From Clostridiales bacterium (GTDB lineage Bacteria; Bacillota; Clostridia; Oscillospirales; Acutalibacteraceae): a DNA stretch of 64,000 bases. The DNA is taken from NCBI GenBank assembly GCA_022799115.1, contig JAAWNT010000013.1, forward strand, positions 1 through 64,000, written 5' to 3'. Each line of letters starts with the position of its first letter. The stretch's first letter is position 1. This document shows, in pieces, positions 13,248 through 51,855 of the stretch. The notes beneath the pieces are model-generated. The model saw only the letters and a program-made list of their open reading frames with translations, had not been told where the DNA came from and ran no database searches. Made by a program: the position numbers and the translations under genes.

Positions 13248-13323
13248 TGGTGATCCATCGGGGATTCGAACCCCGGACACCCTGATTAAAAGTCAGGTGC
13301 TCTGCCAGCTGAGCTAATGAATC
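13248..13323 (-). tRNA. tRNA-Lys (anticodon UUU)
   Basis: The acceptor stem GATTCAT/ATGGATC, the T-loop GGTTCGAATCC and the anticodon arm CCTGA-CTTTTAA-TCAGG give a full cloverleaf of 76 bases with encoded CCA. It is the last gene of the cluster. Confidence 0.96.
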
Positions 13324-13379
13324 ATATCAAATTATATATAATAAGATTCATACAATTGACGAATCCTCATTATTAAAAA

Positions 13380-13455
13380 TGGCTGGGATGGCTGGATTCG
13401 AACCAGCGAGATGACGGAGTCAAAGTCCGTTGCCTTACCGCTTGGCGACACCCCA
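13380..13455 (-). tRNA. tRNA-Gln (anticodon UUG)
   Basis: Acceptor stem TGGGGTG/CATCCCA with the U1-A72 pair typical of tRNA-Gln, anticodon arm ACGGA-CTTTGAC-TCCGT, discriminator G and encoded CCA (76 bases). Confidence 0.96.
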
Positions 13456-13511
13456 ATATATTTTATAAATGACACGCGAAGCTTGTCCAGCCTCGCGTGC
13501 GATTTTTAAAA

Positions 13512-13588
13512 TGGGGTGGATAGTCGGATTCGAACCGACGGTCTCCAGTGCCACAAACTGGCGCTTTAACCAACTAAGCTATACCCAC
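13512..13588 (-). tRNA. tRNA-His (anticodon GUG)
   Basis: Acceptor stem GTGGGTA/TATCCAC, anticodon loop TTGTGGC, discriminator C73 and encoded CCA. A G directly before position 1 (13589) can serve as the G-1 required by histidyl-tRNA synthetase. Confidence 0.96.
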
Positions 13589-13592
13589 CATA

Positions 13593-13669
13593 TGGCGCGC
13601 CAAAAGGGACTCGAACCCCTGACCTACTGCTTAGAAGGCAGTTGCTCTATCCAGCTGAGCTATTGGCGC
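13593..13669 (-). tRNA. tRNA-Arg (anticodon UCU)
   Basis: Acceptor stem GCGCCAA/TTGGCGC, anticodon arm ACTGC-CTTCTAA-GCAGT, discriminator G and encoded CCA (77 bases). It starts only 4 bases after the tRNA-His G-1 position. Confidence 0.96.
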
Positions 13670-13702
13670 AAAGTCAACTACCCTCTCGCTTCGAGGGGTT
13701 AA

Positions 13703-13776
13703 TGGAGCGGGTGATGGGAATCGAACCCACACGACCAGCTTGGAAGGCTGGGATTCTACCATTGAACTACACCCGC
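13703..13776 (-). tRNA. tRNA-Gly (anticodon UCC)
   Basis: Acceptor stem GCGGGTG/CACCCGC as read in the cloverleaf, anticodon arm CCAGC-CTTCCAA-GCTGG, discriminator U and encoded CCA (74 bases). It is the promoter-proximal tRNA of the cluster. Confidence 0.96.
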
Positions 13777-42403: not shown

Positions 42404-43435
42404 TCAATACTCCGCGCTTAACGGGTTCATGGCGCCCAATCCCTGGTCATCCAAATCGTCCACAAATTTCAGAGCCTTGCCCGCTCCCAAAACCACACAG
42501 GTGTCCGGTTCCTCCGCCACTCGGACGGGCAGGCGGGTTTTTTTGGAGATCAGGGTATCGAACCCGTATAATTGGGCGCTTCCCCCAGTGAGAACGATCC
42601 CATCGGTGTAGATATCGCCCACCAGCTCCGGGGGAGTCTCCTCCAGCATCTCCTGGATCTCCCTGGCGATCTGCATCGCCTGATCAATCAGGGCTTCCAG
42701 CATTTCGTCCGAAGTAAAGTCGATGCCCTGGGGCAATCCGGTCAAAGCGTTGCGCCCCTTGATTCGGAAGGTCATGAGCTCCTCCTGGGGATAAACGCAT
42801 CCAATGGCCAGCTTCGCCGCTTCCGCCATCCGTTTTCCGATAATCAGATTGTATTTCTTTTTGACGTATTTAATGATCGATTCGTCAAAATTGTTGCCAG
42901 CCACCTTCAGGGACCGCATGGTAGCAACGCCGCTTAAGGACACCACCGCCATGTCGGTAGTACCTCCCCCGATATCCACCACAAGGCTTCCATGGGGACT
43001 TGAAATGTCAATACCCGCGCCAATTGCCGCCGCCACCGGCTCCTCAATCAGGCAAATCTTTCGAACGCCGGTGGTGCTGATGGCGTTGACCACCGCTTTT
43101 TTCTCCACTTCGGTAACCTCTCCGGGAATGCAGGCCACCACCCGTGACATAAACAACATGCTGGAACTCACCTTTTTCATAAAGGTACCCACCAATTGCT
43201 CCACCAGCAGATAATCGGAAATCACACCGCTGCACAGAGGCGTGATTACCGAAACCTTATCGGAGGTCCGTCCAATCATCTCGTAGGCCTCTTTTCCCAC
43301 GGCAATCAGCTCGTCGGTCTCCCGGTTTACCGCCACAACGGAAGGTTCGTTTACCACAATCCCCTTCCCATGCACATATATCATAATCTTGGAAGTCCCA
43401 AGGTCAATCGCAGCATCTGTTCCCAACGCCAACAA
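42404..43435 (-). CDS. mreB: Rod-shape determining protein, MreB/Mbl family
   Basis: Actin-like ATPase (343 aa) that guides cell-wall synthesis under the membrane. Phosphate 1 motif AIDLGTSKIMIYV, connect 1, phosphate 2 VVDIGGGTTDMAVVS, adenosine motif GIVLTGGSAQLYGF are all present. Start codon TTG (43435 or 43432) with GGAGG upstream. No mreC/mreD follows, so it could be an Mbl or MreBH paralogue. It has its own promoter overlapping the end of comF and a leader of about 210 bases. The C-terminal tail after KALKFVDDLD is longer and polar. Confidence 0.92.
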   Translation of the reverse strand: MLALGTDAAIDLGTSKIMIYVHGKGIVVNEPSVVAVNRETDELIAVGKEAYEMIGRTSDKVSVITPLCSGVISDYLLVEQLVGTFMKKVSSSMLFMSRVVACIPGEVTEVEKKAVVNAISTTGVRKICLIEEPVAAAIGAGIDISSPHGSLVVDIGGGTTDMAVVSLSGVATMRSLKVAGNNFDESIIKYVKKKYNLIIGKRMAEAAKLAIGCVYPQEELMTFRIKGRNALTGLPQGIDFTSDEMLEALIDQAMQIAREIQEMLEETPPELVGDIYTDGIVLTGGSAQLYGFDTLISKKTRLPVRVAEEPDTCVVLGAGKALKFVDDLDDQGLGAMNPLSAEY

Positions 43436-43655
43436 AAACGCCTCCTATATCTCAATCAGTCGCCCTGGCGAATGCCCGGCGTGTATTATCCTTATTCTTA
43501 AACAGTCCATATAAAAAATAATGGAACCGGTGTCCCGTCTTCACTCTGGTGTTGATTTGGCTTGTATCCTTGATAAAAACCAACGGCTTTCGCGTCTCAG
43601 CCTCTTCGAAAACAAACTGGTTGGCATTCCAATATTCACAAAAGCTTGTCTTTTT

Positions 43656-43684
43656 ATTATAGTATAACCAGAAAAGAATTACAA
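43656..43684 (-). promoter_or_regulatory. mreB promoter
   Basis: TTGTAA (43679-43684), a 17-base spacer and TATAAT (43656-43661) on the minus strand. The -35 box overlaps the comF stop codon. It leaves a leader of about 210 bases in which I recognise no known RNA motif. Confidence 0.65.
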
Positions 43685-44356
43685 CTGTTCCGGACGGGTT
43701 TTTACCGCCGCCAGCGCCGCGCACTGCACAGAGGCCGCGCCGGACTGAATCAGCGTCCGGCAGCATTCCCGCAGGGTGGATCCCGTGGTAACAATGTCGT
43801 CGCATACCAGAATGCGGATGCCTTCCACCGACTTTTTCCCAGCAAGCTCAAAGGCGCCAATCAAATTTTGCTCCCGCTCTCTTCTGGTTAGAGTGTGCTG
43901 GTCGGGAGTTTCCTTGGGCTTACTCAAAAGTTCTGCATATGGAATACCCATATGCTCGGCCACTCTTCGCCCAAGCAGCTCCGCTTGGTTATAGCCCCGC
44001 CGCCTTTTTTTCGCTTTGGCGAGGGGTACTCCGGTGACTGCGTCAAACGTTTGCCCTGCAAAAACGATTTGCGCCTGCTCCGCCATGGCTTGCCCCAGGC
44101 TTCGGGCAAGCGCCGGACGATCCTGAAATTTAAACGCGGCAATGGCTTTCTTAACCGGATCCTGGTATACAAAAGGGGCGGCGCACAAAATCGTCTCCTG
44201 ATTTGTTTTATCAATTACAACCGGCATCCGCTGCCTTGGCAGTTGGTCCCGGCAGGTATCGCAAAACGCGGAATCCCTTTTCATCACCTGACGGCAATAA
44301 GGGCACCGAACGGGAAAAAACATCCCTGCAAGGGCTTCAATCCATCGGTTACTCAT
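43679..44356 (-). CDS. comF: ComF-family phosphoribosyltransferase-like protein
   Basis: A 225-residue ComF protein: N-terminal C4 zinc finger (C18, C21, C32, C35) followed by a PRTase fold with the PRPP loop ILVCDDIVTTGSTLRECC. ComFC homologues act in uptake of transforming DNA. I start at the ATG at 44356 (AGAGGG 7 bases upstream), which overlaps the recD2 stop; a TTG at 44362 is in frame too. Being behind recD2 links it to DNA processing. Confidence 0.9.
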   Translation of the reverse strand: MSNRWIEALAGMFFPVRCPYCRQVMKRDSAFCDTCRDQLPRQRMPVVIDKTNQETILCAAPFVYQDPVKKAIAAFKFQDRPALARSLGQAMAEQAQIVFAGQTFDAVTGVPLAKAKKRRRGYNQAELLGRRVAEHMGIPYAELLSKPKETPDQHTLTRREREQNLIGAFELAGKKSVEGIRILVCDDIVTTGSTLRECCRTLIQSGAASVQCAALAAVKTRPEQL

Positions 44357-46568
44357 CGTCAAGCCCTCTTATCAAAAAGGGATACAAGCCCGAATACCGC
44401 TTGGTACGCCGGTTGTTTTCCACCATAACCGCCACCGTGCGGCGCACTCCCACCATAACCAGCAAGGATTTGGCTCGGGTCACCCCAGTGTAAAGCAGGT
44501 TGCGGTAGCAGAGCTGGCGGGGGCCCGGATACATAGGCATCACCACCGCCTCAAATTCGCTTCCCTGGCTCTTATGTATGGTAACCGCGTAGGCCAACTC
44601 CAAGTCGTTGGCGCTCTCCAGTTCATACACCGCCGTCCGGTCGTCAAACTGCACCACCAGGGAAGATGCGGGCCGATCAATCTTTAACAGGATTCCCACA
44701 TCCCCGTTGAACACCCCTTCACCGGTGACGCCGTCCTCCCTCTCCCAGATCAGATCGTAGTTGTTGCGCACCTGCATCACCTTATCGCCTTCCCGAAGGG
44801 TAACGCCGTTTGTCTTCCACTCCTTTTTTTCCGGCGAGGGGGGATTGATCGCCTGCTGAAGCTGAAGATTCAGCTCTCTGCTGCCCAGCTCTCCCTTCCT
44901 TCCGGGAGAAAGCACCTGGATATCAAACAGCGGGGAATAGCCGTAGGTCTTAGGAAGTCTCCGCGTACAAAGATCCACGATGGTGGCGCTGATGGAGGCT
45001 GGATCCCCCTGGTTTAAAAAGAAAAAGTCGCTGTCATGGACAGAGAGCTCCGGCATTTCTCCTTTAACAATGCGGTGAGCGTTCTGCACAATTAGGCTGC
45101 GCATGGACTGCCGGAAGATTTCATTGAGCTGCACCACAGGCACCGCTCCCGAACGGATCAAATCCCCCAGCACATTGCCCGGCCCCACCGAGGGAAGCTG
45201 GTCGCAATCCCCCACCATGAGAAAGCGGCATCCCAGCGGCATCGCCCGAAGCACTCCTTCAAACACATAGGAATCCACCATGGACAGCTCGTCCAGAATC
45301 AACGCGTCGCATTCCAGCATGTTGCGCTCGTTGCGTGTAAAGGTGGGTTTATCCTCCTCGTCCCAGGCCACCTCCAGCAGCCGGTGAATGGTCTTGGCTT
45401 CCTTGCCGGTTACTTCAGACATGCGCTGGGCAGCCCTGCCAGTAGGCGCGGCCAAATATACCTTTTCCCCTTTGTTCTCCAAAATCGTGATGATGGCGTT
45501 TAAGGTGGTGGTTTTCCCCGTACCCGGGCCGCCGGTTAGAATAAGCAGTCCTTTTTCCAGGGCGTCCCGGATGGCCTGCCTTTGCAGCGCGGCATACTGA
45601 ATGCCCTCTTTCCGCTCAATGGCGGCAATTTCTTTTTCAATCCCGGTGATTCTTTGGGGCGGATATTGACGCATCATAAGCAGCCGCCCCGCGCTGTAGG
45701 TTTCACAGCGGTGCATCTTGGGAAGAAATACAAATTCCTGTTCCTCCACAAGCTCGGCCACCAAGCTTGCATCCAGTACCAGGCGGTCCATCTCCTCTTC
45801 CGCCTGTTCCTGCTCCACTCCTAAAAAGCTGGATACCGCTCCCAATAGCTTCTCCTTGGGAAGACAGGTGTGTCCGTTATTCATATTATGCTTAAGCACA
45901 TGCAGGATACCCGCGCGAACCCGGCAGCGGTCGTCCTGGGGCCGCTCCAGCGAGGCCGCGATTCCGTCCGCCCGGTCAAAAGACAAAGAAAGCGGCTCTT
46001 CGCACAAAGAATAGGGATCCTCATGGATGCGCTCCACCGCCTGGGATCCCCAAAGCTTCCAAATGCGCACCGCTTCCTCCGGAGTAATGCCGTAGGCGCC
46101 CAGGGAAACCATCACTTCCCGGATGCCGAAAACATTGCGGAATTCCTCTGCGATTTTCATCGCCCTGGCCCGGGTAATCCCCTTAATGGAGCAAAGACGC
46201 TCCGGCTCTTTTTCCATCACCTCCAGGGTACGCTCCCCAAAGGCGTCCACCAGCTTTGCCGCTGTGGAGGGGCCGATTCCCTTGACCGCCCTGGAGGAGA
46301 GATAGCGCAAAATCGCCTCGGCGCTGGCGGGCAGAGTTCGTTCGCAGGCCTCCGCCTGAAACTGGGTTCCAAAGTTGGGATGACTTTTCCATCCTCCCAG
46401 CAGCCGCACGCTTTCCCCTTCGTTCACCCAGGGCATGGAACCTACCGCCGTGACCAGTTCCTCTCCCACCGACAGTTCCAATACCGTATATCCATTCTTT
46501 TCATTGCGGAAGATGATTTGTTCCACTGCCCCGCACAATTCCAAAAGAGGTTGTTCCATCGTCTCCAT
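44349..46568 (-). CDS. recD2: ATP-dependent DNA helicase RecD2
   Basis: Superfamily 1B 5'-3' helicase (739 aa) lacking RecB/RecC partners, as usual in Bacillota. The N-terminal domain has helix-hairpin-helix elements (KGIGPSTAAKLVDAFG; SIKGITRARAMKIAEE); the motor has Walker A GGPGTGKTTT, motif II LILDELSMVD, motif III VGDCDQLPSVGPG and the C-terminal motifs YAVTIHKSQGSEF and NLLYTGVTRAK. It starts 16 bases after gatD and overlaps comF. The exact start (46568 or the ATG 9 bases later) is open. Confidence 0.95.
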   Translation of the reverse strand: METMEQPLLELCGAVEQIIFRNEKNGYTVLELSVGEELVTAVGSMPWVNEGESVRLLGGWKSHPNFGTQFQAEACERTLPASAEAILRYLSSRAVKGIGPSTAAKLVDAFGERTLEVMEKEPERLCSIKGITRARAMKIAEEFRNVFGIREVMVSLGAYGITPEEAVRIWKLWGSQAVERIHEDPYSLCEEPLSLSFDRADGIAASLERPQDDRCRVRAGILHVLKHNMNNGHTCLPKEKLLGAVSSFLGVEQEQAEEEMDRLVLDASLVAELVEEQEFVFLPKMHRCETYSAGRLLMMRQYPPQRITGIEKEIAAIERKEGIQYAALQRQAIRDALEKGLLILTGGPGTGKTTTLNAIITILENKGEKVYLAAPTGRAAQRMSEVTGKEAKTIHRLLEVAWDEEDKPTFTRNERNMLECDALILDELSMVDSYVFEGVLRAMPLGCRFLMVGDCDQLPSVGPGNVLGDLIRSGAVPVVQLNEIFRQSMRSLIVQNAHRIVKGEMPELSVHDSDFFFLNQGDPASISATIVDLCTRRLPKTYGYSPLFDIQVLSPGRKGELGSRELNLQLQQAINPPSPEKKEWKTNGVTLREGDKVMQVRNNYDLIWEREDGVTGEGVFNGDVGILLKIDRPASSLVVQFDDRTAVYELESANDLELAYAVTIHKSQGSEFEAVVMPMYPGPRQLCYRNLLYTGVTRAKSLLVMVGVRRTVAVMVENNRRTKRYSGLYPFLIRGLDDE

Positions 46569-46584
46569 TCGCCGCTTCCCGCTC

Positions 46585-47322
46585 CTAATTTACCGATTCC
46601 ACACGCTGCATCAATTCCGCCAGGGTGACCTGATAAGCTTTGGTTTCATAATCGTAATTTACCGTCTTCATTTGGAAATCATCCGCTGTTTGGCTGCCGA
46701 TCAACTTAATCATATAAGTCATAAAATGAGGATTTTTCACCAGCACCGGACCGATGAGATGGGTGCCGAATACATTCCGAAAACGATACCCTTCTTTTTT
46801 GTCGCCGGGGGCGTTGCCCTCCCCCAGTTTCATCTCAAACAGAGGATGTTCCACCCCGGTGATGTGGCTGCATTTGTTGATAAACCCCACCATAGGTTTT
46901 GCGTACCACTCCGAGTTGCACACCGCGTCGCCGGTATATCGTTTATCGGACAGCTCGGTCACTTCAAACTGCGCCAGCTCCAACCCAGGATACACCGTGC
47001 CGTCGGCGGCGGTGATGCTTTTTCCCAGCATTTCAAAGGCGTTGCCGGTAAGAAAAAAAACGGCGTCCTCATTGGCGCGCTCCGCAATCACGTCCCGATA
47101 GCGAAGCAAATCGTGCAGCGCCACCTTTTGATTGCGCTCTGTCCCACAGCCGATGTACACAAAGTCGTACCGGGAAAAATCCACGTCCTCCCCCACGCTT
47201 TTTTTGTCCACCGACACCGTAAACCCTTGATCGGAAAGATGGCGGCTCAGCGCCCGCACGTTGCCGCTCTCACCATATAAATTCATCAAATCATGATACA
47301 GATGTAAGATGCGATATTCCAT
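46585..47322 (-). CDS. GatD-like protein lacking the glutaminase catalytic residues
   Basis: A 245-residue class I glutamine-amidotransferase fold homologous along its length to GatD of the MurT-GatD lipid II isoglutaminyl synthase (YHDLMNLYGESGNVRAL; YIGCGTERNQ; NPHFMTYMIKLIG). From my memory of S. aureus GatD, its nucleophile motif TICGGYQFLGKK aligns here with FLTGNAFEMLGKS (Cys to Gly93) and GTYLHGP aligns with GTHLIGP (His to Ile190). The GFENHGGRT block is replaced by GFINKCSHIT. The fold looks intact and the gene is open, so it is not decay. It sits 50 bases after murT. Glutamine hydrolysis is unlikely. Confidence 0.8.
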   Translation of the reverse strand: MEYRILHLYHDLMNLYGESGNVRALSRHLSDQGFTVSVDKKSVGEDVDFSRYDFVYIGCGTERNQKVALHDLLRYRDVIAERANEDAVFFLTGNAFEMLGKSITAADGTVYPGLELAQFEVTELSDKRYTGDAVCNSEWYAKPMVGFINKCSHITGVEHPLFEMKLGEGNAPGDKKEGYRFRNVFGTHLIGPVLVKNPHFMTYMIKLIGSQTADDFQMKTVNYDYETKAYQVTLAELMQRVESVN

Positions 47323-47372: not shown

Positions 47373-48713
47373 TTACTCCTTCTCCTGGGTGATCTCCACC
47401 TTAGATAGAAACTTTTCCTTGTCGGAAAAACAGGTGATGACAAAAATATCCCCCTGGGCGTTGTCTTTCAGATATTCAACCGCTTGTCCGATATCCTCGA
47501 TCACCCGAATACGGTCCTTTTGCACGCCGGCGTAGTCAAAACGCACCATCAAATCGTTGCAGTAACGCCCCGCCAGCACCACCTGCTTGATAGAACCGCC
47601 CGCCAGTTTTTCAAAGTCGATATCCCATAACCAGGAAACCTCGCTGGTAAAGTATTTGCGGCTCACCGCATCCACAATCACCACCACGGTACAGTCCGAG
47701 GGATGATTGACCGCAAGCTGAATGGACTGGTCGTAGGAGATGGAATTTTCATGTTTGGAGGCAAGCAGGGTTCCCTCATGTTGTCCCACACGGAAGGTGA
47801 CAACCCTGCCGTTTTTGAGCATGTAATTCCCCATATCCCGGGCAATGGCGTCACCCGGCACCCCAATCAGGCTCGCCACCGTGTAGGCAGCTAGAAGATT
47901 GTATACATGATACATGCTGCGCAAGGCGAGGGGAATCCGATTCTCTCCGTTGATTGTCAGATATCCCTGCTCCAAATTCGCTTCGGTCACGGTAAATTGA
48001 GTCTCATGCTTGTGATGCCCGCAGCCGCTACAGCGATAACCGCCGATGTGGTTATAGTGATAATACTCGTATTCCATGGGCGCTTTGCAATGGGGACAAT
48101 AAGCCCCGTCGTTATAAAGGCTGTCGCAGCTCTCGGTATCCTGAGGAAGTCTGTCCACGCCAAACCACACCACCTCGTCCTCCCGACCGATGCCAAAACA
48201 GGACACAAGCGGATCATCCGCGTTTAAAATCAGCTTGGTATTGGGTGAAACGCTCTCTTTCAGAATATCAAATACCCATTCCGGATGCCCGTTACGCGTG
48301 AGCTGATCCCGATATAAATTGGTAATGACATAGTGCGTAGGCGTAAAATGCCGGAAGGTGTGGCGGGCAAACCGTTCGTCGGACTCCAACAATATCAAGT
48401 CGCTGCGCACGGCGCCGCTCCAATCGCAGTCGTTTAAAATAAAGGTCGTCACACCCTCAATTTGATTGGAACCCTCCCGGTTATACGCAACGGTAAACCC
48501 GTTTTTCTGTAAGATATGAGCCATCATCTCCACGGTAGAGGTTTTTCCGTTGCTCCCTGTCACCGCCAGCACATAGTCCGGCAGCTTAACCCTTTGCAGA
48601 ATATCGGGGCAAAGCTTGAGCGCAATCCTTCCGGGCATACTGCTCCCTTTCCCCAACAGCTTACCCGCCCAGCGCAGCCACTTACAAACAAGTATGGTAA
48701 TAAACGTCCTCAT
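47373..48713 (-). CDS. Divergent MurT-like Mur ligase with zinc ribbon
   Basis: A 446-residue Mur-ligase family protein with N-terminal hydrophobic segment, P-loop GSNGKTS (53-59), the MurT zinc ribbon (C206, C209, C228, C231) and a DUF1727 C-terminal domain. MurT amidates the D-Glu of lipid II using ammonia from GatD. Here the usual N-x2-ADG-x-D-x-SW-x-WD stretch reads SRKYFTSEVSWLWD, and the usual KNPAG reads KHENS (320-324), so the C-terminal reaction site differs from standard MurT. Paired with the altered GatD it looks like a distinct subfamily. It opens the murT-gatD-recD2-comF transcript. Confidence 0.85.
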   Translation of the reverse strand: MRTFITILVCKWLRWAGKLLGKGSSMPGRIALKLCPDILQRVKLPDYVLAVTGSNGKTSTVEMMAHILQKNGFTVAYNREGSNQIEGVTTFILNDCDWSGAVRSDLILLESDERFARHTFRHFTPTHYVITNLYRDQLTRNGHPEWVFDILKESVSPNTKLILNADDPLVSCFGIGREDEVVWFGVDRLPQDTESCDSLYNDGAYCPHCKAPMEYEYYHYNHIGGYRCSGCGHHKHETQFTVTEANLEQGYLTINGENRIPLALRSMYHVYNLLAAYTVASLIGVPGDAIARDMGNYMLKNGRVVTFRVGQHEGTLLASKHENSISYDQSIQLAVNHPSDCTVVVIVDAVSRKYFTSEVSWLWDIDFEKLAGGSIKQVVLAGRYCNDLMVRFDYAGVQKDRIRVIEDIGQAVEYLKDNAQGDIFVITCFSDKEKFLSKVEITQEKE

Positions 48714-49568: not shown

Positions 49569-50753
49569 TTATCTGCCTACGCAGGCTTTCAGCTGCTCCA
49601 CAGCGTCCAATTTTTCCCAGGCCACGCCCAGTTCCTCTCGCCCCATATGGCCATAAGCCGCCAGCGGACGATAAATAGGAGTTTGCAGGTTGAGCCGACG
49701 GATAATGGCGGCCGGACGCAGGTCAAACACCTGGTTGACCGCCTGGGCCAGCACATCGTCCCCGATCTCCGAGGTGCCAAAGGTATCCACCATCACGGAT
49801 ACCGGCTTCGCCACGCCAATGGCATAAGCCAATTGAACCTCGCATTTTCTCGCCAATCCCGCTCCTACAATATTCTTTGCCACATGGCGGGCGGCATATG
49901 CGGCGGAACGGTCCACCTTCGTGGGATCCTTGCCCGAGAAGGCCCCGCCGCCATGACGGGAATATCCGCCATAGGTATCTACAATGATCTTACGTCCAGT
50001 CAGGCCGCTGTCTCCCACCGGTCCGCCCACCACGAACCGTCCGGTTGGGTTAATATAAATCTTCGTCTTGGCGTCCAGAAACTTCTCCGGAATCACCGGA
50101 AGGATCACCGTTTTGTAAATGTCCTCACGGATCTGTTCCAACGTTACATCGGGATCGTGCTGAGTGGATACCACCACCGCTTCCACCCGTACAGGCTGGT
50201 CGCCGTCATACTCAATGGTCACCTGGGTTTTGCCGTCGGGCCGCAGATAACCTAACGTTTTGTCCTTTCTCACCTGGGTCAGCCGATGAGCCAGCCGATG
50301 GGCCAAAGAAATGGAAAGGGGCATCAGCTCCGGGGTTTCATCGCAGGCGTATCCAAACATCATGCCCTGGTCGCCCGCGCCAATGCGTCCGTCCTCGTCC
50401 ATCTCCCCGTTTTTTTGCTCATAGGACTGGTTAACGCCCATGGCGATGTCGGGGGACTGCGCGTCAATGGAGGTCATCACCGCACAGGTGTTGCCGTCAA
50501 AGCCGCAGGCCGGGTCGTCATACCCGATATCACGGATCACGTCGCGGGCAATCGCCGCAATGTCCACATAACAGTTGGTGGAGATCTCTCCCATCACATG
50601 CACCAAGCCGGTGGTGGTAGTCACTTCACAGGCCACATGAGCCTGGGGATCCTGTTGTAAAATGGAATCCAGCACCGCGTCAGAAATTTGGTCGCACACC
50701 TTATCGGGATGCCCCTCGGTTACGGATTCAGATGTAAAATAATGTCTTGCCAC
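49569..50753 (-). CDS. metK: S-adenosylmethionine synthase
   Basis: Makes SAM from methionine and ATP (394 aa). The signature motifs are seen: [18 protein letters not shown] near the N terminus, [28 protein letters not shown] and the C-terminal [22 protein letters not shown] lies before the ATG. It is controlled by a SAM-I riboswitch in its leader, so SAM should shut off its own synthesis. Confidence 0.97.
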
Positions 50754-50850: not shown

Positions 50851-50857
50851 TATTCAT

Positions 50858-50954
50858 CTCATCTTTCGGTCATTACCGCAGGAATTAGCACCTTACTCAC
50901 GAAAGCAGGTTGCCGGACATCATAGGGCCTGATCCCTCCGTCACTCTTGATAAG
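50858..50954 (-). promoter_or_regulatory. SAM-I (S-box) riboswitch
   Basis: Read on the minus strand, the S-box core is intact: P1 from CTTATC with GATGAG, the kink-turn and SAM-binding side CAAGAGTGACGGAGGGA, CTGGCCC-type loop as CAGGCCCTATGATG, CCGGCAACCTGC, and GGTGCTAATTCCTGC. It precedes metK and a terminator, so SAM binding should stop transcription. Confidence 0.95.
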
Positions 50955-50977
50955 GGCATATTCACTTGGTCGGTATT

Positions 50978-51050: not shown

Positions 51051-51614
51051 TCATACCGGATGAACTGTTTGCCGGGTTTTCTTCAAGATGGGGGTAATCG
51101 CCTGGAACAGCAGCCCGGCAATCAGGCAGTTCAGCCCGCCGATAATCAGGTTGAAGGGAATAATGGCGGGAAGCAACATATCCATTACCACCTGCCGAGG
51201 CTGGTTCAGGAATTCCACGGTGAGAATCAGGTTCATAGGAATCATAACAGCGGTCCTGGCAATGGTCCCCAGCGCCATACCGATTACAGCGTCCCGCATT
51301 TTCTGGCGGCGCTTATAGAACAGGCCCACCAAGACCACCATCACGCCGGAGGCCACAAAATGCATCACCAGCCCGATCCAGCCGTCGGTACTGAACACCA
51401 GCATCTGAATGACCGACACCACCAGCAGAATCATCAGCCCAGGCACGGTTCCCAGCAGAAAGGTTCCAATCAGAATGGGCACATCCGCCATATCATAGAC
51501 TAAAAACGGCGCGATTGGAATGATGGGAATTCTCACCAGGGCCACCAGCACCACGGAGATCGCCGCCAGCACGCCCATCTGGGTCAACCGTAGGATTTCG
51601 TTGCTTTTTTTCAT
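51051..51614 (-). CDS. ribU: Riboflavin ECF transporter S component RibU
   Basis: A 187-residue membrane protein with six predicted helices and the group-II ECF S-component start (RLTQMGVLAAISVVLVALVRIP). The FLVYDMADVPILIG block matches RibU, and the FMN riboswitch in its leader supports riboflavin as substrate. No ATPase or EcfT gene is adjacent, so it should share the EcfA1A2T module at 20-23 kb. The start is ATG at 51614. Confidence 0.93.
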   Translation of the reverse strand: MKKSNEILRLTQMGVLAAISVVLVALVRIPIIPIAPFLVYDMADVPILIGTFLLGTVPGLMILLVVSVIQMLVFSTDGWIGLVMHFVASGVMVVLVGLFYKRRQKMRDAVIGMALGTIARTAVMIPMNLILTVEFLNQPRQVVMDMLLPAIIPFNLIIGGLNCLIAGLLFQAITPILKKTRQTVHPV

Positions 51615-51690: not shown

Positions 51691-51712
51691 ATAAAGACGC
51701 TGTTGCGCGCAC

Positions 51713-51833
51713 TTCTTCTTCCATCCGGACTATACCGTCGGCTCTGGAATCTCACCAGATCAGCTTTCGCTCGCGGGCTACCGGTTCAAAGACCGGATTA
51801 CCGCCGGTGGGGAATTTCACCCCGCCCTGAAGA
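51713..51833 (-). promoter_or_regulatory. FMN (RFN) riboswitch
   Basis: On the minus strand the RFN core is intact: TCTTCAGGGCGGGGTGAAAT, TCCCCACCGGCGGTA, AGCCCGCGAGC, GATCTGGTGAGATTCCAG and AGCCGACGGTATAGTC, closing with GGATGGAAGAAG. With the terminator below it forms a transcriptional off-switch for ribU. Confidence 0.97.
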
Positions 51834-51855
51834 CAGCTTTATTTTATTTTTTATT

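Follow-up and report, generated by a model that had tools for sequence, protein, structure and literature searches.

A murT-gatD pair lacking the glutaminase residues in a Clostridiales bacterium: a possible glutamine-independent ligase acting on a peptidoglycan precursor

MurT/GatD is an essential enzyme and a drug target in several Gram-positive pathogens. In the MurT structures of Staphylococcus aureus (7q8e, 6gs2) and Streptococcus pneumoniae (6fqb), the two aligned stretches that concern this study are of the KNPAG and DNAADGRDTSWIYD type, and MurT of relatives whose GatD has the catalytic cysteine (Cys-type) has KNPxG and (A)DGxDxSWxWD at the same two places. The roles of the MurT interface loop and of the residues serving ATP, Mg, and the acceptor have been described (PMC6085368). 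The C94G form of the S. aureus enzyme does not use glutamine, and its MurT still needs GatD (PMC3266927). Assignment of new sequences to this enzyme can be judged by the NCBIfam equivalog cut-offs, which are 800 bits for MurT and 400-450 bits for GatD.

The window considered here, a 64,000-nucleotide stretch of a Clostridiales genome, has adjacent murT and gatD homologues on the reverse strand. The murT-like gene (47373-48713) starts with ATG and encodes 446 amino acids with matches to Mur_ligase_M and MurT_C (E 1.6e-22 for the latter); the gatD-like gene (46585-47322) lies 50 bp downstream and encodes 245 amino acids with a GATase_3 match and a dead glutaminase site. The bit scores of the window MurT (219 and 195) and GatD (117 and 106) are all below the equivalog cut-offs. 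The P-loop GSNGKT (residues 53-58; 48540-48557, reverse strand) is intact, as are all four cysteines of the zinc ribbon (206, 209, 228, and 231; 48021-48098, reverse strand). In place of KNPAG, the window MurT has KHENS (residues 320-324; 47742-47756, reverse strand), with two extra residues separating K from N, and in place of the (A)DGxDxSWxWD motif it has SRKYFTSEVSWLWD (residues 351-364; 47622-47663, reverse strand), with E358 at the position of S. aureus D349 and FTSE instead of the (A)DGxD context. The interface or active-site loop, RDQLTRNGH (residues 135-143; 48285-48311, reverse strand), differs from that of S. aureus by D137 to T, F139 to N, and E141 to H; across the window group RDQxDRYGE has become RDQxTRNGH, so that in S. 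pneumoniae numbering D139 and E143 are lost and N141 and H143 are new. The original prediction had named the KHENS and SRKYFTSEVSWLWD replacements and the intact P-loop and zinc ribbon; alignment with the S. aureus and S. pneumoniae proteins agrees on every point, and the motif changes prove more general than that prediction stated. Sharing of the window motifs by confirmed synthases would have spoken against it, but the usual motifs are present in S. aureus, S. pneumoniae, and every Cys-type relative. The window motifs recur without variation in 52 MurTs of the subclade to which the window belongs (subclade I, the KHENS type), and since murT and gatD also change together in 277 distinct pairs, the altered motifs are not due to chance. 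An attempt to interpret the inserted loop as a restored MurF/MurE loop was set aside after profile alignments.

The partner GatD lacks the Cys-His of class I glutaminases, the Cys being replaced by Gly and the His by Ile. Residues 92-100 (47023-47049, reverse strand) read TGNAFEMLG for CGGYQxLG, with Gly93 at the catalytic Cys position and Glu97 at the position of Gln98; residues 187-192 (46747-46764, reverse strand) read THLIGP, in the context GTHLIGP for GTYLHGP, with Ile190 at the catalytic His position; and residues 146-152 (46867-46887, reverse strand) read GFINKCS for the glutamine-site sequence GFENHxG, INK taking the place of ENH. Among 53 such dead GatDs, the Cys is Gly and the oxyanion middle Gly is lost in every case, and the His is lost in 51; Gln98 is Glu in 44 of 49 Bacillota dead pairs and in all four from Actinomycetales. 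Retention of Arg128, which captures glutamine in S. aureus, in 49 of the 53 dead pairs could be taken to mean that glutamine is still hydrolysed through another GatD residue; this is very improbable, because the nucleophile, the general base, the oxyanion middle Gly, and the ENH site are lost together in the Bacillota clade and because C94S and C94G are both dead in S. aureus. With Cys and His gone, glutamine is predicted not to be the nitrogen donor. Judged by the defining features of the enzyme (glutaminase residues, D349 context, and equivalog cut-offs), the window pair is not a lipid II isoglutaminyl synthase, but the MurT side would be expected to function as in one. D349 by itself is rejected as a discriminator of live and dead pairs because the D is kept in 13 of the 49 Bacillota dead pairs. 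A small group of GatDs (L372, L373, L381, and L383) from Clostridia genomes of 1.4-1.8 Mb has Asn rather than Gly at the catalytic Cys position (NNALDILG).

The changes in the two subunits go together across genomes. The 277 distinct murT-gatD pairs compared are from Oscillospiraceae-like Clostridia, Clostridia at large, Erysipelotrichales, Actinomycetales, a named genome collection, and plasmids. Cys, His, and an uninterrupted KNPxx loop occur together in 138 pairs, and every Cys-bearing GatD has such a MurT partner. The MurT loop is lengthened in 134 pairs, and in all 134 of these GatD has neither Cys nor His. Five more pairs have no Cys and no lengthened loop, three of them retaining His, which brings the Cys-less GatDs to 139 of 277. 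In this non-random sample of 277 pairs, there are no exceptions in either direction to the association of the lengthened loop with loss of the Cys. On a Leifsonia shinshuensis plasmid (NZ_CP043642.1, from a Microbacteriaceae strain; L236), a live Cys-type pair is followed by a VanY-like M15 peptidase and adjoins metal-resistance genes.

On MurT trees (the first with 121 rows, the second with 98 and with subclade III added), two changes suffice to account for the dead-GatD state: one at the origin of a Bacillota clade and one at the origin of an Actinomycetales clade, each with SH-aLRT 99. The window MurT is inside the Bacillota clade. Both origins show Cys to Gly in GatD, loss of Gly319 and of the DG pair of the ADG motif in MurT, and, in most members, Gln98 to Glu. 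With perfect co-segregation in the 277 pairs and only two origins, the sequence comparison strongly supports the co-evolution of MurT with an altered GatD that had been proposed. Decay or mis-assembly of the locus, which would explain loss of the catalytic site in one subunit, is hardly credible here and can be rejected for the whole family, since 139 distinct pairs with open frames share the state and dN/dS is low, the values between close genome pairs (0.04-0.2) indicating purifying selection on both murT and gatD.

The ligase half has kept its residues. MurT K59, N85, E110, D112, E113, and N132 (S. pneumoniae numbering; the last four are also given as E108, D110, E111, and N130) are invariant in dead pairs and nearly invariant in live ones, and the window MurT has these ATP, Mg, and acceptor-carboxylate residues. 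The aromatic residue of MurT that holds GatD (W360 in S. pneumoniae) is always W or Y. Because both sets are kept, MurT looks active as a ligase and probably still binds its partner, with the glutaminase half predicted to be dead. The reading we prefer, with a probability of about 0.5, is a glutamine-independent MurT ligase with a non-catalytic GatD partner, which would join an amine nucleophile to a precursor carboxylate; it draws on the S. aureus C94G mutant and on conservation. MurT would activate a carboxylate of a peptidoglycan precursor with ATP. By homology with its relatives, this is most likely the D-Glu alpha-carboxyl in lipid I/II. The acyl phosphate would then react with an amine. 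GatD, which is retained and without which S. aureus MurT is inactive, would cut no glutamine and serve as a bound scaffold. An amino acid or amine, not ammonia, is the suggested nucleophile, and it would differ by subclade, one example being a bridging amino acid in B-type peptidoglycan. That this change is shared across a large family of bacteria suggests that something other than glutamine's nitrogen is probably attached. Of the changed reaction in the original prediction, the part that stands is that glutamine would not donate the nitrogen, Cys and His being gone; what replaces it is left between the amino acid or amine, which we favour, and ammonia, which is the main rival and the simplest reading. 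For the window group itself, the claim goes no further than that a precursor carboxyl would receive some amine that is not glutamine's nitrogen.

Amidation of lipid II driven by free ammonia, giving D-isoglutamine with GatD as scaffold only, has a close precedent: the S. aureus C94G complex amidates with NH3 at pH 8.5, and MurT alone is inactive; at pH 7.5, however, the C94G enzyme is inactive with ammonia (PMC3266927). The natural change is mostly the identical Cys to Gly, and Gln98 to Glu in both origins could hold an ammonium ion. The gut and rumen are ammonia-rich places, and many dead pairs belong to MAGs from there. A genome with one kind of pair, dead or live, almost never has the other; that only one genome in the sample (G738, whose dead pair is of subclade III) has both also fits one doing the other's job. 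Ammonia leaves unexplained that the Bacillota subclades differ in nearly invariant pocket motifs (KHENS and SRxYxT in subclade I, with the window; KGQNP and SEN in II; KQENPxT and NTFY in III) and that dead pairs coexist in one genome: G494 and G459 have a pair each of subclades I and II, G469 has two of II, and G705 and G760 have II and III. The live pair beside the subclade III pair in G738 likewise favours another nucleophile. Contamination of single MAGs may be the source of such coexistence, but G705 and G760 are two genomes of one genus, 95-98% complete and 1% contaminated, which argues against it there. On balance, ammonia is possible but somewhat unlikely. Since several paralogues have their own pockets, different amines or different acceptors are an easier explanation. 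Retention of the same chemistry with another acceptor, such as a DAP carboxyl, a polymer, or a UDP-precursor, is consistent with genomes that hold two dead pairs or, in one case, a dead and a live pair, and with replacement of the DNAAD/ADG region, for which a contact with the stem peptide was at one time suggested (PMC6113224); yet the acceptor-carboxylate contact (N85 in S. pneumoniae) and the Mg ligands are invariant and no conserved neighbour gene indicates another pathway, making this distinctly unlikely.

The neighbours of the pair are of little help in naming the nucleophile. Gene order around the window gatD is not conserved among relatives, and no conserved neighbour hinting at a nucleophile was found in the relatives' loci compared, where only murT and gatD themselves recur. 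Close after gatD on the same strand are a recD2-like helicase gene, a comF-like gene, and an mreB/mbl-like gene (42404-46585, reverse strand), while the next genes at the Eubacterium limosum and (probable) Acetobacterium woodii pairs are an mnmA-like gene and glmM. A SAM riboswitch (50856-50956, reverse strand) is upstream of metK (49569-50753), an FMN riboswitch (51709-51838, reverse strand) is upstream of an ECF transporter S component (51051-51614) that is probably a riboflavin transporter, and five tRNA genes (Lys, Gln, His, Arg, and Gly) are clustered at 13248-13776 on the reverse strand. A standard pair elsewhere in the genome, also suggested by the original prediction, did not materialise: the 2.42 Mb genome is 99.99% complete and has a single MurT_C match and a single GatD match, with no second murT-gatD pair.

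In B-type peptidoglycan, the bridge amino acid sits on the D-Glu alpha-carboxyl. Members of subclade III include E. limosum ATCC 8486 (G771) and probably A. woodii (G569), and subclade II includes an Erysipelothrix MAG, from a genus whose wall we take to be B-type. If the pair produced plain isoglutamine in such cells, the bridge would have no place to attach, so that a ligase for an amino acid is the reading that suggests itself there, and ammonia does not explain the E. limosum pair, where the D-Glu alpha-carboxyl presumably carries the bridge. Type B2alpha is listed for Eubacterium (PMC11382707). Dead pairs occur in E. limosum, probably A. woodii, the Erysipelothrix MAG, and five Actinomycetales genomes, and also in many genomes with DNPR, the mDAP-type MurE motif; the correlation of dead pairs with non-DAP MurE is mixed. 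The 16S sequences of four of the Actinomycetales dead-pair genomes have signature pairs that we take to be those of Microbacteriaceae. Because only five of 149 Actinomycetales genomes have one, a dead pair cannot account for B-type bridges in general. In the window genome (L134, G000:C22) and its close relatives, MurE reads DNSR or DNCR instead of the usual mDAP-binding DNPR. With dapF present and DNSR in its MurE, the window genome is unlikely to make a B-type cross-link. We found no description of a Cys-less GatD or of an enzyme for the B-type bridge, and no report on the peptidoglycan of Vescimonas, whose species V. fastidiosa is a cultured member of subclade II, in the open-licence literature. 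A wider proposal, which we hold tentatively from these comparisons, is that the dead-GatD MurTs may together form a ligase family that attaches amino acids or amines to the D-Glu alpha-carboxyl, each subclade with its own nucleophile, including the enzyme that starts the B-type cross-bridge in Eubacterium and Acetobacterium, with GatD as scaffold or nucleophile-binding subunit.

A glutaminase-less version that is widespread means that many genomes that seem able to make D-isoglutamine from glutamine cannot, and the natural variant marks the location of the residues that couple MurT and GatD. Should an amino acid or amine prove to be the nucleophile, these pairs are also candidates for placing the bridging amino acid on D-Glu, as in E. 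limosum and A. woodii. Like the S. aureus and S. pneumoniae enzymes, the window pair is a two-gene unit with Mur ligase middle and MurT_C domains, a zinc ribbon, ATP, Mg, and acceptor residues, a GatD homologous by sequence, and a MurT Trp/Tyr that contacts GatD; unlike them, it has a GatD without Cys, His, and ENH, a MurT with a lengthened loop, no ADG motif, and a rewritten interface loop, and scores of 106-219 bits against cut-offs of 400-800. We know of no gene for the enzyme behind the polyamine substitution of Negativicutes. That substitution resembles the proposed ligase reaction in putting an amine other than ammonia on the D-Glu alpha-carboxyl (PMC10628300). The MurT-like proteins of pseudomurein archaea resemble the window pair in being related to MurT and in needing no functional glutaminase (PMC11915815), but they have no GatD at all, whereas dead pairs always retain it. 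The S. aureus C94G laboratory mutant shares with the window pair the Cys to Gly change and the retention of GatD as a non-catalytic partner (PMC3266927); in the mutant, however, MurT is unchanged, whereas in the window the changes extend to MurT and to the remainder of the GatD site.
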